Source of the DNA: Fistulifera solaris
Taxonomy: Eukaryota; Bacillariophyta; Bacillariophyceae; Naviculales; Stauroneidaceae
Direction: 5' to 3'
NCBI GenBank assembly: GCA_030295235.1
Contig: AP026174.1
Location: 1-34,886 of the forward strand
DNA length: 34,886 nucleotides
Part shown: one piece after another, positions 14,582 through 34,886 of the stretch
Layout: the number at the start of each line of letters is the position of its first letter
Numbering within the stretch: position 1 is the stretch's first letter
Program-made: the position numbers and the translations under genes
Notes under the pieces: model-generated
Database searches by the model: none
The model's input: the letters and a program-made list of their open reading frames with translations, nothing else
Told to the model about the DNA's origin: nothing

Positions 14582-14926
14582 TCTACAAATAGTATCGTTT
14601 TATTCAAGCATACAGTGAAATCGAAAAGCAGCAAGGAATCACAAGAATACCAGGTAGACTAGATTTCGCAGTCGCTTGTATTGTTGCTGTGTTTGAGATG
14701 CGAGCGACGCCGTCCACTGGAACGCGCGCTGCCCGCCTTTTCGAAATGGAGAATAAGCGGGACTAAATATAATTTAGTCGCCACTTACGGGAAAACTAAC
14801 ACCTTTATTGTCACTGACGCCTGTATGGCGAAAATGTGTAACCGTCGTGATGATGATCCGATGCGGACGACAGATATCTCGTTTTGGCAATCAAAGCTTT
14901 CATTTTCGTTGAAATTAAATAAAATA
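14582..14926. other. Upstream region of the ankyrin/UBA gene
   Basis: 345 bp with no supported gene. It holds the presumed promoter of the minus-strand gene and may include a more diverged neighbour of the satellite that follows. Confidence 0.35.
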
Positions 14927-15620
14927 CAACGCTTCGAATGTCTACTCAATTTCACATAGCTCTCGTAGGGAATTTATCGACAGAGGGGTACCGGATGTTG
15001 AGTAATTTCGATCACACCGTTATCCGCATTTCTCGGACACCAATATCAACCATACTTTGCCCAACATTGCTAATGCGTGAAATTAGACAGTAATCAAAAC
15101 TAGACTAATCTGTGATACAAGAATTAGTAGAAAGATACAACGCTTCCTTTGTCTACGCGTATTTTACGTAACCGCCGTAGGAAATTTATCTCTGCAGGGG
15201 TACCCGGAGATTGCATTTTCCACCATCATTCAAATTTTTCGATTTACGGTGCACAGACGTCAGCCTTATATTGCGCAACGTATGGGCACCGTAGCGGTCA
15301 GTAATAGTCGCCACCGATTTGAAGACAAAGGATGACGGAACGAACAATCCAACGCTTCGAATGTCTACTCATTTTCACGTAGCTCTCGTGGGGAAATTTA
15401 TCGACAGAGGTACCCGGATGTTGTGTAATTTCGATCACACCGTTATCCGCATTTCTCGGACACCAATATCAACATACTTTGCCCAACATTGCTAATGCGT
15501 GAAATTAGACGGTAATCAAAACTAGACTAATCTGTGATACAAGAATTAGTAGAAAGATACAACGCTTCCTTTGTCTACGCGTATTTTACGTAACCGCCGT
15601 AGGAAAGTTATCGATTGATT
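14927..15620. repeat. 211-bp tandem satellite with 422-bp higher-order repeat
   Basis: The word CAACGCTTC recurs at 14927, 15138, 15350 and 15560, giving steps of 211, 212 and 210 bp. Units 1 and 3 are nearly identical (TCGAATGTCTACTCA..), as are units 2 and 4 (CTTTGTCTACGCGTATTTT..), while 1 and 2 are only distantly alike. This gives an A-B-A-B arrangement. Unit 4 is cut off after about 60 bp. Confidence 0.85.
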
Positions 15621-17398: not shown

Positions 17399-17831
17399 TG
17401 AAATACAGAGGTTAGGGGTTAGGAGAGACGCTCAAAGCAAGAATCTTAGATGTTAATTAGGATCTTCTACGTAGTTACATTGTTTTCAATCGATGATGCG
17501 TATACAAGGTGTATATGTTAATGAAATGATTTTGTTTACTTCGAAAAAGCTTCGTATGTCTTCCAAATATTCGACGAAAGATATTTCGAAGTTTTTCCCG
17601 ACTGGATCAAGTCATGAGTCGTTGCAAATCCAGTACGACACGCATTGGACGACCCTTCGCCAACGTGACGAAAAACAGCGAACGAACGAACGAACGAACG
17701 AACGAAGAGCGAAGACATCAAAATCAACAGCAACAACAAGCATTCATTTGATGCGAAGATGCTTTCAATCGACTACTTATAATATCGCATTTTCACATCA
17801 TTTCTTATTCATTCAAAGTTAAAAGCTGTGT
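17399..17831. other. Intergenic with GAAC microsatellite
   Basis: Contains a short AGGTTAGGGGTTAGG telomere-like word (17409-17423) and about six GAAC/CGAA units (17679-17705). It may contain an unrecognised first exon of the PH-START gene. Confidence 0.4.
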
Positions 17832-19433
17832 TTGATAATTCCCGCAGCAGCCTTTGTGGCGGTTACTTTTGGCTGGATAAAGTGTCCGACGGAGGAGCGA
17901 AAACACAGAGACGTATTCGAGTTAGAAGAATATTTTGAAGAAGACGAAGAAAGTGAATCATCAGCTGAAATTTACAGTGTTATTTCGGAAATGAATCAAC
18001 ATTATCAAGGAGAGTTGTGGAAGCGCCGCGATGTATTCAAACAAAGTTGGCGACCGCGCTGGTTTGTGATACAGCCTGAGGAAAAGCTTTTGACATATTA
18101 TCTCTTGACCTCTCAAAGTCGCCCCGCAAACGCAACACCCACATCTTTACAACGCTCCCCTTCTTCACACGTATCAGCTAGGAGTCGTACAATATCAGTT
18201 GATAGCTTGGCGTCTGAGCAGAGCTTAGACTACGATGTTTTACCGCGGGGTCTTTGTCGCTTGAGAATTGTACAGTTTCCAAGAATGGGGTTTCGGTGAA
18301 GAATGATCTATTCATGTTCACGGTCGTGTCATCTAGAAATGAAAAGTATTATTTAGCCGCACGGAGCGACGCTGCAAGAAGCGACTGGATGCAGCGGATC
18401 ATAGCTGCGAGTCGTGGGCAATCATCACCATTGTCAAGGACCTTACCTCGGACTCCTCCTCCCGAAGTATGTACTCCATCTCGCTTGGATAGAGCAACGC
18501 CACGGTCGGGAAGTAGACGTATTGCTCACTGGGACGATGTCTTACAGGAAGGACCGTATTCGCTGAATGTACCAGAGGCACTGACGAATCGTTTACGTCA
18601 AACTATGGAGAAATATCTCTCGGTAGCTGCACAAGACAAGACTAACAATTGGACGATTCTACAACCAAAGAAACGATTAAGAGGCGGTCATTCTTACGAA
18701 ACTCTATCTCGAACCTATCCGGATGGCCATGGTATGATTTTTACGGTTGCGGAATTTCGCAACATTACGCCAACACAACTATTTTCCACGTCTATTGATC
18801 CGTCGCGTCGAAAGCGCATGGAACCCACTCTCTCTGATGCAAAACGATTGCATGTTTATAATCCTCATACTTTTTGGATGTCTACCAGTTTCGCGGTGTT
18901 TGGCCGGTAGCGTCTCGGGAGTTCGCCGTGGTGGTGCATTGGCAAGTTGTGCAATGGAAGTCCGCTCCAGCCATAATTGCGTATAGTTTTACGTGTCCTG
19001 AGGCAGAGCAAGCTGCTCCTGAATCTACCTCGAAAGCTGTTCGTGCAAAGTTGATCATTAATTTTGGAATTATTGAGGCCACCGATACAGGGAGTCGTTG
19101 GACGCGCATAGCATCTTTTGACTTGATGGGTGGTATCAGCCAAAGCCTATCGAATGTCGTTCTTATGCAGCAATCCGCGATGCCAGAACTACTACTGAAG
19201 TACTTTGAGCAAACAAAAGTGCCTAGTGCTACTACAATTTTATCCAACGAGTCTATTCGTGAAATGATCATCGGTCCTATTTTGGGAATTGGGAATACTG
19301 GCGCGAGACGACAACTCAATTTCATTCCCCGGTCCCGGAGTCGCCGGATATCACGTCCTTAAGTGACTTGAGCGAGAAATCAGCGTCAAAAGAAGTTCTT
19401 AGTCCATCTCCAACATTTCAAGCCGGGCATTGA
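17832..19433 (+). CDS. PH-START lipid-transfer protein (frameshifted)
   Basis: The open frame at 17832 lacks an ATG before 17991, so an upstream exon or frameshift is likely; an acidic stretch (EEYFEEDEESESS) precedes the first domain. The PH domain (about 18000-18410) runs from YQGELWKRRDVFKQSWRPRW through LENCTVSKN to RSDWMQRI. A Ser/Pro linker follows, then a START domain (about 18590-19260) with WTILQPKKRL, FRNITPTQLFSTSIDPSRRK, VYQFRGVWPVASREFAVV and IASFDLMGG. PH domains bind phosphoinositides and START domains carry lipids, so a role in non-vesicular lipid transfer at membrane contacts (as for CERT/STARD11) is a family-based inference. Frame changes near 18265, 18873 (T run 18871-18875) and 19315. 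After the last one the frame ends at TGA 19431-19433. Confidence 0.8.
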
Positions 19434-19453
19434 TCCTCGTTTTGCCACTTTTG

Positions 19454-20214
19454 ATTTACTTATCGTTGTCTCTTGTCCATCGAGAATTTTAGCCTTTTGG
19501 TGCTTTTGTATCGCGGTCTTTCTTGCAATACGCCAAACCGTTTGTTTGCACTTGGTACAAGGGCCCGTCCTTTCGCGTGGTCTCGGCGGAACCCTTTGAC
19601 ATCTACTGTCACGTGTCGAATATCGGTACCAGCTAAGGGCATTCGTCGCTACTTGACTAATTCGAAAGAAGACAATGAAGCGACGGCTTTTTCATCAGGA
19701 TATTACGCACGTGCATCTCCTCATATCTGCAATTGCCAAGGCTCTAACGAAAGAAAAGCAACTATGCGTGGGACATCACTACGTACCCTGGCTGATGATT
19801 GATACGGCGGTAGACACTTCATCAGAACCCATTACTGTTTCAGTCTCTGAAAATGGTGGAAGCGTTATCAATTTGAAAAATGTGCAAGAGCGCACTGTAC
19901 AAAGTATTGCAGACGAGCTCGCTGACGCTGAGAACGACAGAGATCGTGGCTATGTTTCTGCGCACTACCCTAAACTTGGTCAATGCTTGGTAGTTGCGTC
20001 CCATGATACAAGTCTCGTTACAGTTGATGCCGTAGTGTCGGCTCGTCCCGAAGTTTCCATTGTGGCTGTTGTCGAGAAGGACGGGAGAACCAACAATTCA
20101 CTGATTATATCACTCACAATGGTGGTTCCAATAACTGCTGATGTATCTGCTTGTCGTCGCTATGCAGCCGATGTTCAACAACATTTGCAATTCCCGGAAT
20201 TATGCGACAATTAA
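19454..20214 (+). CDS. 2-oxoacid dehydrogenase E2-like acyltransferase-fold protein
   Basis: The best part runs from the ATG at 19675 to TAA 20212-20214 (179 residues). HLLISAIAKALTKEKQLC is like the first helix of the E2 (CAT-like) domain, INLKNVQERTVQSIADEL is like the VIRDAdxxSLxEIAxEI segment, and SLIISLTMVVPITADVSA sits where the E2 core has its Sxx-DHRVxDG motif. The catalytic HxxxD of true E2 enzymes is absent there (VVPITADV). Upstream, in another frame, ISVPAKGIRRYLTNSKEDNE fits the preceding helix, and an Arg/Ser-rich, acid-poor sequence could be an organellar presequence. A frame switch is needed near 19680. No lipoyl domain is visible. The gene starts about 20 bp after the PH-START stop. 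Either a non-catalytic relative or a misread one. Confidence 0.42.
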
Positions 20215-20265
20215 AAGTTTCTATGCATTGACATTTGGACTATTATGAAGTTCTGAAGTAGGGAG

Positions 20266-22727
20266 CTACTGTCGTTTTCGCAGTAGCCTCCGTAGAAACC
20301 CTCGTCGTCGCTTCCGTTCTCCGCCTAGTATACGGCGAATTTCTTCTACCTGTTTTTCTTCTTGGTTCATGTAATCCAGCGTTATGCGCTTGAGTTTTCA
20401 AGTTTGATTGGGTCGGTAACGTCGATTGGAAATTCATCGGGTAAACCCAGCACCGGGTTTAATCGAAAATAACGAGTCATGGACGATGTTTTACTTCCTA
20501 GGCTTACGGCTGCTGGATTGCCCAAGATATCTTCCAGTATATGGTGCGTTTGCTCCCCATCACACGCGCTATTGACTATTTGACCTATTATCCCGTCCCA
20601 GCCGATACGAGGAGCACTTTTCTGTTCGACGAAAGCGCCAGTTCCGACGCTCACTAGAAGCTCAATCGGAATATCAGGGAACAGTGTTCTGGCCTCATGG
20701 ATTGCCACTGCACTAGGATTGCTTGAAACGATTCCACCGTCCGCGTATATCTCACCTCCCATCATGACCGGCGAAGACTGTCGGTGCGGCAGTGGATGCC
20801 CGTAACGCGAAACGTTGTAGGACACGAAACGACCCTGGATATCGCGAGCCAGTGGTGGTGTCTGCTCCAGGCGCTTTGGGAGACACGCGCTTACGCGCAT
20901 AAACGGCATTTCGAATGATCGGGTGTTCCAACTCAAGTCCGAGTCCCAACTCTTCTCGTGCTTTGTCAGGATTGATAACAAAAGAGTCAGCTAATTCTCC
21001 ATTCGCATAATTATAGTTTCTCATCAACGACACATGAGTCGGTGTAGAGGACATTTTGGACGTGACGCAGAACACCAATGGGACCGTGGGATCTGCTCGT
21101 GAATCCAACATGATCTCATCTCGAAGAATATCCGTTAGCACTTTCATAAAATGAGCTTCATCGTAACTCGCTGTAGTAAAAACATGAGTGGAGTACTCAG
21201 CGCCGATTTCACGAAGATTTGTTTGATGAGTTGATTATAGCGTTCCACCGCCTCGGCACACGTCTCTTGTCGAATGGCGGTGAAAACGCAATGATCCCAC
21301 CGGTGGACGTGCCGGCCACGATATCAAAGCAATCGGCGACCTCTGCACCGTTTCCAATCTTTTCCATAAGATCTCGGACCGCAGTGACGGCAACCATCCC
21401 ACGTGATCCACCACCATCAAAGAGAGAATGCGAAGGCCGCGCTGACCCGGTGTCTTTGGAGTCCACTGGTTGTAGCCAATAGCTGCTAATATTTGATTGG
21501 CTATTCGTTTGACGTTTGCATTCAGATCTTTACCAAGAGTTGCTGCCTCTAGAAATGGTCTTCGCAATGTCCGACGCCCGCGTGCTTTTCGTTGCCACAA
21601 CCATTTTGCCATTTCACCAGGATATCGAACCCAGCGTCTAGCCTTTTCTTTACGAGCGTATGATGAACATCCCAGGACAGCATCCGCAAGACCATTCGTA
21701 GATCGTATCGCATCAATCGCGTTGTCACTAGATACCACCATCGCCAGCAAAGTTGACAAACGTAGAGCTTGGATCGCAGTCGGATCTCGCGTTGATTTCT
21801 TCGAAACTTATTATCTGTATACTCATTGGCATGCTGTAGTATATCGGAGAAGTCCCTCATAAGACCTCCTTTCCAAGCGGCGTTGGCACGCAATGTTGTA
21901 TCCGTAATGACGGCAGCCAAGTCCAACGACAACACCGATACATCTCGAAATGACACGACACGCACTGCAAGCTGCACGATACGCTTGTTCCGTACTTTCC
22001 AATGTGTAAGCAGTGGAAGAATCAGCTTGTTCTGGCGATACTTTTGAATGGCCATCGCTCCATGACGAATGATTTCGAGTAGAGGAAACAGACCGTCTGT
22101 TTCACGAGCCAGTAATTTCCACTGTTCGACTGTTTCGGTACTCGCTAAAATATTTAGTGCCAAGAAACGCATATCACGACTCAGACGTCCTCCTTCGGAA
22201 GGAGTATCAGCAATGGAAAGCGGGATGTCTTTGACTGTCTTGTAATGACTTCGATAAAGAGAACTCATCGGTAACACTTGGATCGGTGTCTGCATTTGCT
22301 CCGCGCCATCGAGCCATTTGACTGATCCATCCAGTTCTTTCGCAGTCTCCCAGTCCAGTACAGGTATTTCTTCAACATAATCAGATTCTGGTAACGTACC
22401 CTTTTTGTTGTGTCGTTCGCTTTTATAGCAGGACGGTCCAGATCCACCACCCCCCTGAAAATCACCTCTTCTTTGCATCTGCAATAACAGATTACCGAAA
22501 GAACCCGACGCAACCGATTCCCAATCATTTAAAGTTTCCACAGCCGTGCTCTCTTGTGTACTATTGTTGTTGCTGGCGACAGTGCTAGAATCTTTTGCGA
22601 AGATACGCATAAAGAATGTTGTCGCTGCGAAGCACTGAAAACGAACGTCGTCGACGGCATTGTCCATCCGTTGACGTGCACACGCCAGAAAAGCATGAAA
22701 AGAAAACACATAGCAAAACCCTCTCAT
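20266..22727 (-). CDS. Patatin-like phospholipase (frameshifted)
   Basis: Minus-strand frames chain from ATG 22727 to TAG 20266-20268, giving about 820 residues. The N-terminus (MRGFCYVFSFHAFLACA) is hydrophobic and may be a signal peptide or anchor. A helical, Leu-rich middle (about 21650-22220) looks like armadillo/HEAT-type helices. The patatin domain follows: LRILSL then DGGGSRGMV (oxyanion loop, Asp codon about 21418), GTSTGG (nucleophile Ser about 21305-21307), and ADGG (catalytic Asp about 20739-20741) followed by SNPSA. The C-terminus is basic (GERKRRRGFLRRLLRKRQ). Ser-Asp dyad patatins hydrolyse acyl chains from phospho- or galactolipids; helical-repeat plus patatin resembles PNPLA8/iPLA2-gamma. 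Frame switches near 21740, 21420, 21230, 20960 and 20390. Confidence 0.85.
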
Positions 22728-23145
22728 ATTTTCTTCTTTTGTAAGGGTAAAGTATGATAAAGAGTGAGGTTGAAGGATAATAGGGATACAAAGTGATGAT
22801 GCGAGAAAGTGTTGTTTGCAAAAGTGATGGGTTTTCGAGATGATTCGTGACTGTTTGACTTGACGCAATCAAAAGGTGTCAAGCGGAAATGTCGCACTGA
22901 TGAACCTACAACGAACCGACCATCTGGTGCGACTGTGAGGAAAAGTGTAGTTTGAGTGTTTCTGGATCTTCTGTGCGATGATTTCTACTTGTGACGTAAG
23001 ACGTAAGCAACGAACGTGTTCGTCGCGTTTCGAGAAAGCCGACGTCCGCGACGTTTTTCTCACCATGTCGTTCGATCTCGTCGCTTCTCGTTCTCGCAAC
23101 AACACTGTTTTCTTTATCATCAAGAAGAAACTGTTTTATTTCAAA
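22728..23145. promoter_or_regulatory. Divergent promoter region, patatin and PGAM genes
   Basis: 418 bp between two diverging start codons, so both promoters must lie here or overlap. A TGACGTAA word (22992-22999) matches the core of a bZIP/CRE site. One such word is expected by chance at low frequency, so binding is not shown. Confidence 0.4.
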
Positions 23146-25726
23146 ATGCGGCATTATATTGATATTTTCTGTATCTTGGTACTCTCAACGGGCAAATATG
23201 GCACTGTAGCCTTTCAAAGACCCTTTGGGTCGCTCGAACACGCGCTGTTGCGCGTCAAGCTTCGACAGACACAGAAAGTCGAAGCAATGCAAGCGACGAT
23301 CTTTCTCGACCTATTTCCAACGGATACTCCATGTCGATGTCAGGCAATTATCAAAACAGTCTGCAAGAGAAAGGGAAACTACTAAGAAAGTTGTTCGGTC
23401 GTCGGCCCTTGGAATTAGACGACGATGACGGATACAACTCGATGCGCAGCGAATCTTCCAAAATGATTACAGTCCTAAAAGCATCAACAATGTTATCTTT
23501 CCGAAACCGAGAGTCGAGCCGGGAACACTAATACTCGTTCGTCACGGAGAATCACTGTGGAATGCGAATGCTACGTTCACTGGATGGGCTGATCCGGGTC
23601 TGTCAGAGCGAGGTCGTCGGGAAGTCGAACATGCGGCGCGTTTATTACTAGAAGGTGGATACGAAATCGATATTGTCTTTACTTCCCGACTCAAACGGGC
23701 AATCATGTCGTCGTGGATCATGCTACAAGAAATGGAACAAATCTACAAGCCGGTTTTAAAACGTGGCGATTGAATGAACGCATGTACGGAGCATTGACTG
23801 GATTGTGCAAATTCGAGACGGCGGAACGGTTGGGTGCAGATCTAGTACAAGAATGGCGAGGATCCTTGCGTACACGACCTCCTCCGTTGACACCCAACGA
23901 CGAGTATTGGCCCGGTCGTGATCGGAAATATGCGGATTTGTCGCTGGAGCAAATTCCCATGACCGAATCGCTTTTGGATTGTATGGAGCGAACGGCGCCT
24001 GTCTGGGAAGATAAAATCAAGTACGAATTGCGCCATGGGCGAAATGTCATGGTAGTGGGACACGCAAACACCTTGCGTGGTTTAGTAAAGACAATTGATG
24101 GGATTTCGGATGAAGATATTCAAATGGTTTCGATTCCGACCGGCATTCCCATCATTTACAAATTCGATCGTGATTTAAAGCCAATTCCTCCTTCCGCCGA
24201 AAAGTCGACCGTGAGTCAAGTGCATATGAAGGGTTTATTTCTGGAAAACCCGGATTGCTGAAAGAAGCTCTCAAACGTGAAGAGGGTGGGCGAATCAAGT
24301 CCCTGGATACAACAATACACTGGCGCTGAGCTCAAGCCAAATGTCGGTACCTTTGACGTCTCTCGAGCGAAGTCTGTTGAAGTTGCGTGCAGAGCGAGAG
24401 CTAGGTGAGTGGGCAGGGCAGTTTATTGATCCAAACGCAGCTCCCGAAGACGATGGGAGTGACGGCAACAACGGAAAGCCTATGCAATTTATCGAAGATC
24501 AAATCTGGTCAGACGGATTGCAGGCATTGGAGCGCGGAGACCAATTTGACCCAGACCTTCCACGTTCAAAGATGATGGTAGTATGGAATTTTCGCAAGGT
24601 GATGATGATGACGACGACGAATCGCCTGTTTCTCCATACGTTATCTCGAGTAAGCCGTGCGTGACTTCGGTGCCCAGCCAAGTGTTGGTGCCGGAATGGG
24701 AAAGACGCCCGTTCGACGCGATCCAGTTATTGTTATCATTCGACATGGCAAGACGGGTCACAACTTGCTCGGACTATTCACGGGATGGGACGATGTCGCG
24801 TAAGTATGCGGTTGTGCGTTTGTTCGTGGATCCGACTGAACTCACAATTTGCCGCATAGACTTGCCCAAGACGGAATCGAAGAAGCCAAAGACGCTGGTC
24901 GGCTGCTAAAAAGTACGGATTTGAATTCGATGTGGTTTATACTTCGTGGCTTTCACGAGCGATCGAAACGGCGTGGCATGTGCTTTCGGAAATGGATTGT
25001 TTATGGCTCCCTATCATTAAAACTTGGCGACTGAATGAGCGAATGTATGGAGAGCTCACCGGACTTTCGAAACAAATGGTAAAGCAGCGTCATGGCGAAA
25101 CGCAGTTCAAAGCATGGCGACGAGGCTATAAAACACCACCGCCAAAGGTCTCTTCGTTTTCTCCTCATTATCCTGGCAACGACCCTCGCTATTCGAAATA
25201 CTTGTCTGATCTGCGATATTCTGTGCGCGAGTCCCTCATCCGAAGTATTGAGAAGGAAGACCGACACTTGCTCGCAAACTTCCCAAATCGGAATCGCTGA
25301 AAGATTGCATGGACCGGACAATACCCTTTTCACGGAGTGCATCACGATGCCGCAAACAGATTGACCAGGGAAGCGTGTTTTTTAATTTCCAGTAGCGAGA
25401 ATGCTATTCGGGGCTTGTTGATGCATCTTTGTGATATACCGGAGGATAAGATTGTTGAGCTAGAAATTCCGAACGGTCTTCCGATCATTTTCGATGTCAA
25501 GTCGAAATGCGTAAAGCTTCTTGACGATGGTAGCGGTCGTGATCCTTTGGAAGTGCACAATTTTGGTAAAGCGGCAAGCTACCTGTTCCGACCTTGTCTC
25601 AACGAAGATGGATCACCGGATGAGGAGTGCATGATATCCGTCGACGATGATTTTTCGCTGACTGCAGAAGAGCAAGAAGTTATAAATTCAATTAAGAATC
25701 CGGTCGCAGCCGTACAGGGAAAGTAA
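23146..25726 (+). CDS. Plastid-targeted double-domain phosphoglycerate mutase
   Basis: ATG 23146 starts a signal peptide (RHYIDIFCILVLSTGKYGTVA) followed by FQRP, an A|F plastid junction. Domain 1 (about 23525-24230) is a cofactor-dependent phosphoglycerate mutase: LILVRHGESLWNANATFTGW with RHG at 23540-23548, LNERMYGALTG, and VVGHANTLRG with the second His at 24061-24063. A linker (LEKPGLLKEALKREE; VPLTSLERSLLKLRAER) leads to domain 2 (about 24715-25540): IRHGKTGHN, TGWDDVA, LNERMYGELTG, but ISSSENAIRG in place of GHxNxLRG, so the second His is a Ser. A 60-bp intron lies at 24800-24859. Stop at 25724-25726. It interconverts 3- and 2-phosphoglycerate; domain 2 is probably not a normal mutase. 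Frameshifts occur near 23300, 23470, A run 23758-23761, 24245, 24290, 24580, 24700, 25270 and 25370. Confidence 0.88.
24800..24859 (+). other. Intron in PGAM domain 2
   Basis: 60 bp, GC|GTAAGT..GCATAG|A. Splicing joins TGWDDVA to LAQDGIEEAK, the expected mutase sequence. Confidence 0.85.
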
Positions 25727-25769
25727 ACTATGCAACAATTCGCTTTATGGGACGAAATTATAATCTGTA

Positions 25770-26901
25770 TTATTTATCAACTATATTCTTCTTTATAACT
25801 AAGCCGCGCAAATCGCATGGCAAAGCATCGTTAGTGAAAAGCTCACTGACAATAATCTTGGATCGATCGTATTCCACGCCATCGTGATCAACAATAATCT
25901 TATTGTCCGTCAAGAAGTCTACGAAAGCTCGCCAACGCTCCATTGTCATGGTACCCCAGCTTCCTGTCTTGCTTAAAATAGCGGGTGCAATAGCCTGCGC
26001 CGACGCCATGACAAATTCCTTGTCTTTCAGCGATGGGTGTCCACAGGCGCATAACGCTTTGCTCCCCGAACCGGATCCGACGCCGCAATTTTATATCCAC
26101 GCTCGGTAGCAGCCAAGAAGGCCTTGACCTTGTCCATGTGGTCGAGATAGTATCAGGGCGGCAAAACAAGATCGGCGCATATCCGTACGCAACATTATAA
26201 TCATCCCAGCTGAACTCGTTCAATTTCTGTCCAGCACGAGCCGCTAAGAGACCCTCCCAATGAGAAAAGATCCAAGCTGAATCCGAAAGACCGCGTTCGA
26301 GAAAACTAGCAACAACACTTCCAGCTTCAAAGATTTCAGGCACAGCGTAGCCATGGCCTGGAAGTGGCTGAAAAATTACTTTGCTACCGTCGCCCCTGCA
26401 TTATTTACCATGGTACGAACCATGGCATCCGAAAACGGCCCCAATGTGAAGCGAAACGTCGACCTTGTAATTTCGCCGGAGTGTCGATTCCAGAACTTTG
26501 AAGAGTGCAAATAGCAGACGTCGAGCCTTGCAGGAGAGCCGCAACCGCCACAAGGCGCGACATTTGTTGCGTGGAAGTTGTGGCAAACGAAACGACAGTT
26601 TCAGAAGCCCCAACTGCGAATGTTGCTGTGCCAGCGGCTACCCGACGGGGCGGCGTAACAGCTCCTTCATTCTCGTTAGGAGGAACGAGCGTTACATTAA
26701 GCCCTGCTGCGGTGTAAAACCTTCTTGCAAAGCAACATACATGCCAACATGGTTCGTATTGGGCGTCCAGTCTAGTGCGACTGTGATTTTCCCCTTCGCA
26801 ATGTCACACATTGATAAGTTTTCGGACGAATGATGATCGGCAGCGTTGATAACTTTGAACGGATGAGCGACGGCAATCAGCGGACTGGCAAGATGAAACA
26901 T
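25770..26901 (-). CDS. NMT1/THI5-like substrate-binding protein (frameshifted)
   Basis: Minus strand, ATG 26901 to stop 25770-25772, about 375 residues. The N-terminus (MFHLASPLIAVA|HPF) looks like a signal peptide; an upstream extension is open but lacks an ATG. KITVALDWTPNTNHVGMYVA is the first strand and ligand loop of the SsuA/THI5 family. FAVGASETVVSF (about 26572-26612), AWIFSHWEGLLA, FSWDDYNVAYGYAP and the C-terminal WRAFVDFLTDNK follow in family order. Bacterial relatives bind pyrimidine thiamine precursors for an ABC transporter; fungal THI5 makes the pyrimidine itself. No CCCFC iron-site motif of fungal THI5 was seen, so ligand binding is more likely than synthesis. Frame switches near 26700, 26530, 26380, 26140 and 26040. 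The gene converges on PGAM with only 43 bp between stops. Confidence 0.8.
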
Positions 26902-27499: not shown

Positions 27500-27660
27500 C
27501 ATCCCCTCTATCCCCTTTTATCCCTAAATTCTTTAGTTTATCCCCTCTCATCGCCGGAATCCCTCTCATCGCCGGAATTCCCCTCTCTCCCCTCTTATCG
27601 CAGCGATTCCCCTCTCTCCCCTCTCATCGCAGCGATTCCCATCTCTCCCAGAATTTCACT
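27500..27660. repeat. CCCTCTC/ATCGC minisatellite
   Basis: Degenerate tandem units such as CCCCTCTCATCGCAGCGATT and CCCTCTCATCGCCGGAAT, with strong C/T bias on this strand. About six to seven units. Confidence 0.75.
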
Positions 27661-29206
27661 TTAGCTAATCTATATCGTTTGTATTGGAGGACAGTAACAG
27701 GTGTTTGCGGAGAGGGAAAGAACCGCGCAGCGAGGATCTCCCCAAACCCCAACTTAGTACTAGGCTTAGTTCTACGCGGCTAAGGTGCAATCGTTAGGTT
27801 TCGCACCCCTGGGTAGGGTCAAGGATGGGGAACACCTCTTCTTACGCACGTCCGCTGCTAAAAGGGGCCGGTGATAGAGCAGTCCTTTGACAAAAGGCAA
27901 AAGAGTTAAGTTGGGTGTCGGCTATTGTAATTGCCTTAGGAGTGAAAGTAGAAGAAGTGGGATGAAATTTTGTCGATATTTTGCGATGAATAGTTTTCGA
28001 CAAGACGAATTACAAATAGCTAAAGCGGTAGCTACGACACGTGAATCGACTATTTCGCAAATGTATTGGAACAATCGTTTGATTATTGATACAATGAGAA
28101 CGATAAGCGAGCGCAAAATGATACGCTTTCGACTTTATCAATTTTGTCGAATTTGGCGACCGACGTTCGAATATTGAAATCTAAGAAAGCGCTACGATTT
28201 GACAAGCACAGACCCAATCAAAGCTTTTAAAATTCATGTTAAAGTTATTGTACGATTTCTGTGCCGAAATCGCGTCTCTAATGCTTGCATTTGAAGAATC
28301 GAAATTTTCGGTCGGTCAACGAACGTACCTTTGATTCTCTTTCTTTGACTTTCAAACGCACTATTTTGATCAATCATAACAAGACAGCAGTCGACCTTAA
28401 ATAGCAGTAGTTACATATGAGCCGAGAATATGAATTGTTTTTCGATACGGCTTCGCAAGGGCCTCAAACATCCCTTCTTTTCGACGGAAAATGCGGCATG
28501 TACTTTGAAAGCCCGCTGCACAGTCATTTTGAATAAATCCGCGCGTTTCTTCGTAGAGCCTCGTAGGAATAAATAGTATTTGACAGCAGTGTCTTTATAT
28601 AATTGAAAAGTAAATGTCGAATGAAGTAAATGACGGCCTCCGATGTCATGGTTGATTGTTGTCGTTTTGAGAAAAGGATTCCGAAACGGACACGACTGAC
28701 GCGTGTAATCAAACACCACCCTGCGACATTAAACGATTTTTGACAGTGCAAAATCAGTACAATCCTACGGGTCTAGGTACGTTAATTGCTATAGTAAATT
28801 CTCAAGACCAGAAATAACAAATTCTGCACAGATAATGGCCGATTGACTGCAACAACTGTGGATATCTTTCGGAATAAGTACAACAATTACTACAGTTCAA
28901 CGCTTTGACAACTTGAACTAGCTGAGAAGATTGAAGTGTGAATTATATTAGTCGTAATAAGCAAAGCACTTAGTGATTTACTACAAATAAAGTGTTAGAA
29001 TCTTGCTGGTCCTCGGTGAAGGGCTATTCATGATCTGTGAGCACGCATTTTGACCGGAATATCAGATATTCTTTTGAAAAGTGATGAGGCACTCCTTCCC
29101 ACAATTTGTGCTTGACCACAGGTTGTAATCGTTCGACAATAGTGCTTTCTTGCTCCTTGCTTTCTGCTTGTTGCTTCTACCTTTTATTGCTTTCCTTCAT
29201 CTCAAG
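27661..29206. other. Subtelomeric stretch, no recognised gene
   Basis: About 1.5 kb. A 96-residue plus-strand ORF (27887-28177) contains SFRQDELQIAKAVATTREST but matches nothing I know; other ORFs are shorter. No tRNA, repeat array or motif was recognised. It could hold remains of old elements. Confidence 0.35.
27887..28177 (+). CDS. Unrecognised short ORF
   Basis: 96 codons with a charged helical composition in the second half (DELQIAKAVATTREST, MRTISERKMIRFRLYQF). It has no known motif, sits in a gene-poor subtelomere and may be a fragment or chance. Confidence 0.15.
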   Translation: MTKGKRVKLGVGYCNCLRSESRRSGMKFCRYFAMNSFRQDELQIAKAVATTRESTISQMYWNNRLIIDTMRTISERKMIRFRLYQFCRIWRPTFEY

Positions 29207-32200
29207 ATGGACTACAGCTTTGAAGACCTTTTCAACGGTGACTACCCAACTCCTGACCGCGAGAATGTTACTGGCGGGATGGCTGGGACAGATGGGGCGG
29301 CTGGTCTGGCCCCGGCGACTGCAACTACTACGCTATGGACTTGGGCAGTGGAGATCATCCAACAGCTGAGATAGGTGCCCCAGCACCTGCTCCTTCCTTC
29401 TTGTGGTCGCCAACTGCTACTGGAACTGCACCCGTGACAACTCCAGCTTCTTCGTTGTTCCCAGCTCCTCCTCACGATGCTCATGGCGGATGGCAATGAT
29501 GACTTTGAAGAACTTCTTGTTGGTCCTCACGACTGATCAAACTCCTTTGCTCATTCCAACTCCTCCAATCAGAACTGCAACTGCATCTGCAGCGATGACA
29601 GCAACCAACAATGCTGTGGCTCTTATCGATGCAACTCGAGTCTGGGTGGTGGAGATCATTCTGGTGGACCAGCTCTGGTGACAAGTGAACTTCCAACTAT
29701 GGCTACAGTTGACTCTGGCTCTGACGACTCAGTTGGAACTTCCTCCAGCATCTATAAGCGTACTGCCACGGACTTGGACAACAACGGCTCAATCAGTTCC
29801 ACGAAACTGTCAACTTCGCCTCCCAAGCCATTCAACATGTTTTACTTCACGGAAGGTAAATTGAAGTGCCTTGCAAAACATTTGTCAAGGAAGATGCTCT
29901 TTTGAATGAAACTACCGCTGCCAATATCTTTGAACATGTTAGTGCAAACCACACCGGCTTCTCCTTTGATCAAGCTACTGCAGCGGAACTGGCAGACGAA
30001 ATGAAGATCTGGAAGACACAGGCGTTTGATATGAGGGACGCTTTCATCTGTCTTCACTGTGGAAAGGCGAACATTGATGCGATCAATCTTGACCCGAGTC
30101 CTGCAGGAAGATCTCGAGCAGAAACAGTGCCCCAGCCGCAAGCAGAGAAAAATAAAGCTTTCACGTTGGCCGAGAACGGCGAAGGAAGCTGTCTGCTCTA
30201 CCGCGAGTTCCCTCACACAAATCGCGGCGCAGCAAGGCGTTTGACTTTGCCGCGAGCGATCGAGATGATTGAGAAATATCGCTGTGGAGGGAGGAGACCA
30301 CACCGTATGTCACCCATCTTCAGCCTCTTGTGGATCTTTGCCATTGCTTGGGCTTGGATTTTGATACTAAGTTTCGAGAATTCATTGTTCCGCCGCGAAA
30401 GAGATTGATCAGACTATGGAGCCGAGCTTGAACTCATTCACAAATGGCTGGAAGAATGGATGAGAAAGAATCACACAGAGCTTCTTATCAAGATGATTGA
30501 TCCAAAGACACGCGTGCAAGCCTGATGACTTTTCCTGGGCTAGATGTGAGCGACCGACCTACGGTGCAACCTTTGTTCTCTATGAAAACATTGTTGATCT
30601 ACTCACGGAGTTAAAGCATTTCATTATGCTTCATGTGGCGAACAGGCTCATTTATCATCCGCTCGCATTTCTCGAATTCATCGAACCGAGTCCCAAGCCC
30701 AAGATCCACAGTTGTTTGTGTTGGAAATGCTGGCGGCATACCTTGAAGAAGATAGGGCTTTTCCACCGCAAACCGATGTTGAACTATACTGCATTGTTGG
30801 CTCCATGGTACTGACCAAGAAGAAACTTCGCTTCGAGACTGTGGAGAGGTGGCCTCCATGGTTTCGTGTCCTCCACATGTTGCGAGCAACGCGGATAAGC
30901 TCTTTTGCCGTGCAGCAAGACACAATGAGAGACAAGACAATGCGGTTTATTGCTGAGAGAGTGTGAGGTGCAAGGGTGCCCGCAATGCTTTCTGGATTGA
31001 TTAGTGCTACACGAGACATGTCGGCACGCAAAATTACAGCAAGGCGGCGGAGGCGGACGGCACAAACATCTACTACGGCAATACCTATCACAGAGACTTC
31101 TTTTCTGGTCTCCTACCTGCAGCTCTGGAGAAGTGCAAAGAAGCATTTGCTAGCATCTTCCGCGGGGAAGCTGGGCCTCTTTTCTGAACTGCTTCGAGCG
31201 GTTGTGGTCCATCACGTTGATGAGGCAACATTGTGGTTTACAATGCAGAATGGAGAGCAAACAATATCATCGGAGGATCTACAAATGAATGGCGATAGCG
31301 CTGAAACACGGACAGAGATGCTTCAGCAAGTGGCTGCATACCTTGATTTGGCATTTGACTGTTTGGTTTTGGAGTTGGAAGCCTTACGAAGTCAGACATC
31401 TGAAGTTGTCTGAAGTTCACTTTGCGCTGGGGCGGCCGAGTATGGTTTGGTGGTCAACAAGACTGTAAAACTTGTGTCAAAACAGGCTGCAGTGAAGCGA
31501 AAGGTCATGCATGTTCTGCCAACTGAAATGTGTCGTGTGTTTATCTTGTATCGGGCGGCACTTCAGCAGTTGAATCCTTTTGGCAACAATCTGCTACTAG
31601 CTCTTCCAAATAACGAAAACTCGCATTACAGCATGCGGCAAGCTGCTCGGACACTCTTTGATCTTGTAAACACACCCAGAAAGACGGAAATTCGGCAGGT
31701 GTTTTCAGCGTGGCACAATGTCTTGTTTGGCGAAGTCGATCACACCATTTTGACAGCAACTGAATCTGTGGCGAACCAGCATGGACATTCAGAGAACACA
31801 TGTCGAGCGATATCATACAAAGTTGCAAAGCGCAGGCATCAAGCTGATTCGGATCTTTCAAATGTCACTTGGGCGTACCACTCTGCTACAAAAGGCGGCC
31901 GTCGACAGTGGCGACATCTGAGGGACCGGCAGCGATACGGACCAGGTTTCCAGTTCCTGGACATCACACAGCGACAAATGGTGGAGATGGTTCTAAGCGG
32001 TACCACGGCCATGTCGGTACCCCTGCGGAAGTGGTAAATCACTTGCATGGCTTGGGCCACTTTTGGCGGCGTGGTTCTCCAACAAGCCGTTGAACACAAT
32101 CATTGCTCTTTCACCCTACAAGTTACTGAACAAACATCACATTGCATCGGCTGAGGCCCGTTTGGCAAACACATCAGTTCGGATAGGAAATGCAGGCTTG

Positions 32201-33140
32201 GCGTTTCAGTGGCACAGATGCGCTGCTCAAATCAAAGCGATCACAAACTAGGAAAGCTTGACGTTGTGTTTTGTTGCTGTCGGAGTTTGTGGAGCTCTTC
32301 AAGAACCACAAAAGCTGCCTCAAGGCGGACTTTTGCACAGCGATTGTTTTACTAGGATGAGGAGTACATACCATGCTTGTCCGAAGTCTCTTTTCGCAAT
32401 GAGTACAAAGAGCTTCAAGAGATCGGAGCGCTAGATATTCCAGTGATAACTCTTTCGGGACGCTGGACTTTGCGCTCATTGATCCAGTGTTCGCATTTTT
32501 AACCTCAACAAAGTGCCTCCTCGTAAAATTCTTCGTGGCGAGGTAATGGGAGAAGTAGATCAAGGCTTCACTGTGGACTACTAGGTGGTGGGCGACCTAG
32601 TGGCTAGCGCGAGCAATCTTGTCGTTAGCTGAGTCAAAGAACTAAACTCAGGAGTGTCAATGCATCATTTGCAATACAATCGGACTCGGCAGCACAGCTA
32701 GAAGAATGGCTCTTGCAACGTGGATTCACTCCATGCGTTATTACTGGTCATTCTGGCGATGAAGAGATCCAAGCGCCTTTCGACGATGGCGAATGGTGAA
32801 ATCAAATCTACATTACAACAACTTGTGGCTTGGTAGGAAACGAGAATCGCAAATGCGTGCATGTTCTTGTGGCTGGCAACATTTTTAGTATGAGCAACAT
32901 GATTCAGTCCTACAATCGAATCACGAAGGTCTCAGAGAACGTCGGATGGATCATTTCGGTACTGCTGGATCACAGTGATAACCCTTGAGCGCAACAAAGC
33001 ATCTGACGGACAAAGCTTTCAGTCTCTTTGTCAAATGGGGATCCTATCGGAGACACACCAAAATGGCTTTATGAGGACTTGTTCGAGCTTTGCGGTCTAA
33101 GGAAAAACCTTTACTGTGGGGTAAAGTGTAAGATTTCGAT
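29207..33140 (+). CDS. RecQ-like, telomere-linked-helicase-type protein (frameshifted)
   Basis: Coding sequence can be followed from ATG 29207 through many frames to about 32990-33140, over 1,200 residues. Order: Thr/Ala/Pro-rich N-terminus; a C2H2-like finger (LKCLxCKTFV ... NIFEHVSANH, about 29860-29955) and a second CxxC (FICLHCGK, about 30045); a long helical region; a segment VMHVLPTEMCRVFILYRAAL (about 31507) and NQHGHSENTCRAISY (about 31775-31818); FQFLDITQRQMVEMVLSG before a Walker A, GSGKSLAW (32027-32050); SPYKLLNKHHIASAEARL (motif Ia region); DEEY (32356-32367, motif II); IPVITLSGT (motif III, about 32435); then ITTTCGLVGNENRKCVHV and SMSNMIQSYNR (motif V/VI-like). This matches RecQ-like SF2 helicases with the N-terminal layout of fungal telomere-linked helicases. 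Transcription points to the telomere 1.2 kb away. More than ten frame breaks; some may be real decay. Confidence 0.7.
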
Positions 33141-33928: not shown

Positions 33929-34153
33929 TGGAATTTCTTGGAATGAAGTTTTGCTGGCGTCATGCCACAATTTTCGTTCTTCGATTATCTTTGGAATTAG
34001 TATGTCCGTCGTTCTTGCATTCTCTTTAAGTGATGGTTTTTGTTTTGATTATCAAAGGCGAAAACGCGCAACATAAACGACGATGGCGTGCATCCGTGTC
34101 AAATGACAATATCAGCACCATGAAAGAGCTACTGTCTCTCTTTTCTTTCTACA

Positions 34154-34325
34154 GGGTTAGGAATTTGGAAATTGGGATATGGAACTTGGAATGTGGAAAG
34201 GGAACTTAGAACTAGGTAAAGCGGAATATGGTAACTAGGAAGAGGTAAATGAGGTAGAAGGAACAAGCAGATAATTGGAAAAGAGAGAATAGGTCGGGAA
34301 AATAGGAAATAGGAAAGATATTGGA
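34154..34325. repeat. Purine-rich subtelomeric tract
   Basis: About 170 bp with very few C on this strand and recurrent GGAA, TAGG and TTGGAA words. It starts with AGGGTTAGG, a telomere-like word. The G-rich strand is the same as that of the telomere. Confidence 0.7.
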
Positions 34326-34384
34326 CATTGTGCACCAGTAAGACAATTAGCTGCAGCACGGTCTGTCTGGCAGACCCACTGACA

Positions 34385-34886
34385 TTAGGGTTAGGGTTAG
34401 GGTTAGGGTTAGGGTTAGGGTTAGGGTTAGGGTTAGGGTTAGGGTTAGGGTTAGGGTTAGGGTTAGGGTTAGGGTTAGGGTTAGGGTTAGGGTTAGGGTT
34501 AGGGTTAGGGTTAGGGTTAGGGTTAGGGTTAGGGTTAGGGTTAGGGTTAGGGTTAGGGTTAGGGTTAGGGTTAGGGTTAGGGTTAGGGTTAGGGTTAGGG
34601 TTAGGGTTAGGGTTAGGGTTAGGGTTAGGGTTAGGGTTAGGGTTAGGGTTAGGGTTAGGGTTAGGAGTTAGGGTTAGGAGTTAGGGTTAGGGTTAGGGTT
34701 AGGGTTAGGGTTAGGAGGGTTAGGGTTAGGAGTTAGGGTTAGGGTTAGGGTTAGGAGTTTAGGGTTAGGGTTAGGGTTAGGAGTTTTAGGAGTTAGGAAG
34801 GGTTAGGGTTAGGGTTAGGGTTAGGGTTAGGGTTAGGAGTTAGGGTTAGGGTTAGGGTTAGGGTTAGGAGGTTAGGGTTAGGGTTT
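34385..34886. repeat. Telomere, (TTAGGG)n
   Basis: Perfect TTAGGG hexamers from 34385 to about 34664 (over 45 copies), then TTAGGG mixed with variants (TTAGGAG, TTAGGAGGG, TTAGGAGTTT, TTAGGAAGGG) to the end. The G-rich strand runs 5' to 3' toward the right edge, which is the orientation of a right chromosome end. Confidence 0.98.

Follow-up and report, generated by a model that had tools for sequence, protein, structure and literature searches.

A telomere-adjacent gene of the diatom Fistulifera solaris predicted to combine zinc fingers, a tyrosine-recombinase fold and a RecQ-like helicase

The window analysed here is an entire contig (C50, 34,886 bases) of a Fistulifera solaris assembly, which was searched as a whole (61 contigs, 51.7 Mb). 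On its forward strand it runs into a telomere of TTAGGG repeats at 34385..34886 (+; array 34385-34885, 82.3 copies). A chromosome-end-associated repeat lies directly before it, at 34150..34384 (+). The last gene before the telomere, at 29207..33140 (+) and oriented toward it, is confirmed as a superfamily 2 (SF2) helicase gene, in agreement with an earlier sequence-only reading of this DNA. Ahead of the RecQ-like helicase part, the gene encodes probable zinc fingers and a region of predicted recombinase fold. Its frame is broken, mostly by presumed assembly errors, and its 3' end is uncertain.

The helicase motifs of C50 are scattered across many short stop-to-stop frames. Contig C27 carries a copy in which PCGSGKSLAWL and DEVH are found within one open 209-residue frame (Pfam DEAD, E 1.5e-13), and the "DEEY" motif reported before was a misreading through the broken frame of the window. 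Within the gene, C50 and C27 differ by 54 indels, of which 50 are not multiples of three and 34 have a net length of one. Between 25.0 and 29.0 kb, six of the eight 500-base bins show zero substitutions; the remaining two, at 25.0 and at 27.5 (adjoining a tandem array), show 1.0 and 7.4%, and the bins inside the gene 0.6 to 3.7%, part of which possibly comes from indel placement. Since the indels are mostly frame-breaking while substitutions are absent from the majority of bins near the gene, most breaks of the C50 gene are presumed to reflect assembly error or poorly polished sequence. It was also considered whether C50 and C27 could be two independent full copies. This was rejected, since window positions 9-15 kb and C27:20054-26103 match at 99% and are ordered alike relative to the end, and since substitutions are lacking in most of the bins around the gene; judged by these alignments, C50 is the C27 end assembled twice, and both stand for one end.

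A pseudogene, called on frameshifts alone, was not adopted either. The related gene on contig C30 likewise carries several frameshifts in this assembly, yet the public record holds a protein of 1457 residues (FisN_13Hu001, here P0001), whose length fits an unbroken frame across the C30 span. The C30 relative is 95% identical to this F. solaris protein over the 491 residues searched, and the "probable diatom" of the sequence-only reading was thus well placed. The "001" of the protein name is taken, as a reading of the name, to designate the first gene of its scaffold. The tblastn matches to the window copy stop at P0001 residue 1231, and the Cys-rich tail of P0001 has no match there.

The RecQ-like helicase core occupies 31900..33000 (+), as delineated by sequence motifs, protein homology, Pfam and the fold of a relative. 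It includes the Walker A motif (32022-32042) in the stretch PCGSGKSLAW (32022-32051), in which the GSGKSLAW noticed earlier is recovered, motif II (32356-32367), a motif III near 32450 that is SGT-like, also as first read, and motifs V/VI at about 32806-32920, with YITTTCGLVGNENRKCVHVLVAGN at about 32806-32880, all on the + strand. The RecQ-like assignment is upheld by the predicted model of relative P0002, for which RECQL5, BLM, WRN and RecQ are among the top Foldseek rows, and by Pfam helicase matches ranging from sub-threshold to significant. Whereas the fold is that of RecQ helicases, P0001-P0003 have no Pfam match to the RecQ zinc-binding, RQC or HRDC domains; only P0003 matched the recQ_fam model, with 19.0 bits, far under the cut-off of 219.8. 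Cys/His pairs, which are probable zinc fingers, are readable in the N-terminal part at 29860..30090 (+) and are fuller in C27 (CLAC..H..H, CLHC). As zinc fingers, which the sequence-only reading had announced, they are weakly backed by Pfam (zf-C2H2_2, E 0.052). As a side observation, relatives P0004, P0006 and P0008 have an additional conserved domain at their C-terminal end, with no convincing Pfam match in P0006 and P0008.

Between these two parts lies a tyrosine-recombinase-fold region (31174..31833, +), delimited by homology to residues 586-794 of P0001, by the fold of P0002 and by conservation. The sequence-only reading had recognised the helicase and the zinc-finger region of this architecture, the recombinase fold escaping it. 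The predicted model of P0002 has, with some cautions, the catalytic-domain fold of the Cre/Xer-like tyrosine recombinases, Cre and XerH being the top structural matches in two aligners for this one model. An Arg-Lys-Arg-His-Tyr set is kept in 26 of the 27 divergent relatives covering the region, including P0001, the C30 protein, which retains all five residues. The active-site tyrosine is found nine residues past the histidine. The active sites were compared using the residue numbers of Cre. In the window, the codons placed by hand are Lys 31459-31461, Arg 31693-31695, His 31786-31788 and Tyr 31811-31813 (+). Predicted fold, residue set and His-Tyr spacing are shared with Cre, XerH and the type IB topoisomerases; unlike these, the diatom protein lacks the box II His, has no detectable sequence similarity to them and is fused to a helicase.

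The distribution of the gene was analysed by DNA and protein searches of the assembly with pieces of C50, C27 and C30 as well as with P0009 and P0001; all first-look candidates were scored, and the counts are lower bounds. All relatives were found at contig ends only (C50/C27, C30, C21 and C23), and no internal copy was found by either type of search. Relatives or remnants are thus present at four distinct ends which, together with the lack of an internal copy in these searches, substantiates the telomere linkage proposed earlier. The expectation of copies at several ends holds as well, with the reservation that C27 and C50 are one end and that two of the four ends have remnants. Sequence no more than 8.5 kb away from a contig end makes up about 2% of the assembly; for independent copies, which duplicates are not, four ends would therefore be hit by chance about 2 times in 10 million. 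Of 27 pattern matches in viral contigs, none was a relative.

A block upstream of the gene (27700..28983, +) matches five places, C50 itself included, each of them a contig end. It is full on C27, C30 (849,825-850,941 of 858,319) and C23 (497-1594 of 957,500), with only 28605-28804 present on C21 (961,141-961,333 of 962,882). Its upstream border is at about 27.6 kb for C27, C23 and C30, but at 28605 for C21. A tandem array (27540-27649) lies at the proximal border of this block and adjoins a break in the C50/C27 alignment. C30 terminates in telomere repeat. On C23, the telomere repeat starts where the leader should go on (window about 28,983), and on C21 it starts inside the N-terminal coding part, the first 28 residues of which still match P0001. 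On C21, the remnant comes immediately after reading frames that resemble a copia-type retroelement.

The left end of contig C29 matches window 17,634-25,828 at 88% and then passes at once into an end repeat and the telomere; the gene block is absent. Because F. solaris is allodiploid, this is taken as the homoeologous end. Either the block is thus an addition to one of the two related ends, or the other end has lost it. Immediately outside the border of colinearity with C29, on the minus strand at window 25900-26803, lies an NMT1/THI5-like gene that is split over two frames, with Pfam matches of 1.4e-13 and 7.4e-4. In yeast, too, THI5 genes are subtelomeric.

The end-associated repeat before the telomere has at least 54 matches in the genome, with 40 of 51 candidates scored; most of them are close to contig starts or at high coordinates. 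Among the matches listed, 21 of the 22 minus-strand rows are at most 5.7 kb from the contig start, and C26:198671 is a possible exception. A stretch of about 80 bases within 14800-15423 recurs at dozens of genomic sites, often at intervals of about 425 bases, with copies on C36, C38, C40, C5 and C1, a pattern resembling that of a dispersed satellite.

An ordinary DNA transposon helicase (of Helitron/Pif1, AcademH or KolobokH type), lying near the ends by happenstance, is very improbable as the source of this gene. AcademH and KolobokH do carry DEAD and Helicase_C domains, as described in the consulted part of PMC10799480, and the C21 remnant adjoins the retroelement-like frames. However, Pfam detected no Pif1, Helitron or DDE domain in the window, in the C27 and C30 pieces or in P0001-P0003; a recombinase fold is present instead, and the distribution is restricted to ends. 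A single internal copy or a Pif1/Helitron match, either of which the sequence-only reading had named as speaking against it, was therefore not what was found.

The closest known parallel is provided by the telomere-linked helicases (TLH) of fungi, namely Schizosaccharomyces pombe tlh1-4 and those of Ustilago, Magnaporthe, Fusarium and Agaricus var. burnettii, which are described, in the portions seen of PMC7840980, PMC7473861 and PMC12857005, as RecQ-like helicase genes in terminal position at several chromosome ends. Truncated copies occur beside full ones, according to passages of PMC12857005 and PMC7473861. The diatom gene likewise adjoins the telomere at several ends, in full and truncated copies, and has a RecQ-like SF2 core. 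Other features set it apart. A search for the N-terminal DUF3505/OrsD domain (PF12013), a profile suggested as a check by the sequence-only reading, came out empty for P0001-P0003 at E values up to 10 and for the window, C27 and C30 pieces at E values up to 1. The predicted tyrosine recombinase fold is not described for TLH in what was seen of the three sources, and domains beyond the helicase core were not found, per the section seen of PMC7473861. Our literature search retrieved no telomere-linked or subtelomeric helicase in diatoms, in keeping with the earlier impression that none had been described, and no paper among the matches listed has both a telomere-linked helicase and a tyrosine recombinase among its terms. 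The words "helicase" and "subtelomer" are absent from the main text of PMC8147415.

The best protein outside the family is P0031, which combines DUF3505 with a RecQ-like helicase (E 3.7e-11), the profile match extending into its Cys-rich tail. When only the helicase core is used, P0031 scores 109.4, below several ordinary RecQ proteins, with P0032, P0125, P0116 and P0033 among the higher scorers (124.3 to 119.8). In the helicase tree the diatom family forms its own clade (100/100), the tree being unrooted and including only two DUF3505 rows, neither known as fungal. Because the DUF3505 searches were negative and the two available DUF3505 proteins do not join the family in the tree, an independent family fits better than a transferred fungal TLH, the two origins between which the sequence-only reading had left the choice. 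The diatom family is filed as working like TLH and as a non-member. A recombinase domain was also looked for in the DUF3505 proteins P0031 and P0088. The region alone did no better than shuffled controls (P0031 23.5 vs a shuffle maximum of 22.1; P0088 10.5 vs 16.1), and the candidate was rejected on this ground; on visual inspection the motifs of both are suitably spaced, and in P0088 the region is crossed by a long profile match, which leaves a lead. That all TLH, fungal and diatom, might be hidden tyrosine-recombinase/helicase mobile agents for chromosome ends, with a recombinase that is open to view in the diatom and unrecognised in fungi, is a tentative and rather unlikely extension.

The balance of probability tips slightly toward an end-dwelling, mobile-like gene of F. 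solaris, encoding one long protein in which a tyrosine-recombinase fold follows N-terminal zinc fingers and precedes a RecQ-like helicase. Relatives were found at ends only, both folds are found in the P0002 model, the Arg-Lys-Arg-His-Tyr set is conserved, the copies at two ends are cut short by telomere repeat and the homoeologous end is empty. The protein would be an end-dwelling, mobile-like agent, whose activity, binding target, cutting and movement we infer as follows. The zinc fingers and recombinase domain would bind DNA near chromosome ends, where the tyrosine would cut and rejoin strands, and the helicase would open the duplex, allowing the gene block to be copied or exchanged between ends. 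The protein would thereby keep its own gene at chromosome ends, and copies may be trimmed where terminal DNA is lost and telomere repeat is then newly added. In having a tyrosine recombinase fold as its possible mobilising part, the diatom gene resembles Cryptons and Starships, tyrosine-recombinase mobile elements of eukaryotes, from which it differs by its helicase fusion and its end-only location.

Several observations weigh against the recombinase assignment. The box II His is missing in every covering row, which has Thr, Val or Leu there, and the first Arg site, near 31375, reads Ser in C50 and Leu in C27, within error-rich sequence. The recombinase region matched no recombinase among Pfam and PDB sequences. 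The missing histidine, the first Arg not read at C27/C50 and the remnants at C21 and C23, two of the four ends, both cut short by telomere repeat, would suit a passive passenger of subtelomere exchange, with a recombinase that is inactive and only binds DNA, or with a transcript that outweighs the protein, as is argued for the S. pombe tlh genes, which may act mainly via RNA, in the part consulted of PMC7840980. Such a passenger is unlikely, given that the five active-site residues are retained jointly in nearly all the divergent relatives and that a long protein is in the public record; conservation of the active site favours a functional protein over an RNA role.

A domesticated host gene for chromosome-end upkeep is possible without being probable: a helicase-recombinase that would aid replication or recombination of eroded ends and would have been spread passively by subtelomere exchange. 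Its position at ends only, its low copy number and the active-site conservation among relatives speak for such a gene, but remnants alone at two of four ends and an absent block at the homoeologous end argue against a need at each end. The activities proposed above for the end-dwelling, mobile-like gene might, as a by-product, also allow eroded ends to recover, as discussed for fungal TLH.

Why helicase genes reside at fungal chromosome ends is an old question. The present results suggest that the diatom family resembles the fungal telomere-linked helicases but is built differently. If this is true, a recombinase fold of the strand-cutting kind, joined to the helicase in one chain and found outside fungi, would allow tests of how such blocks get to chromosome ends and depart from them, and of whether they act as parasites or as helpers.
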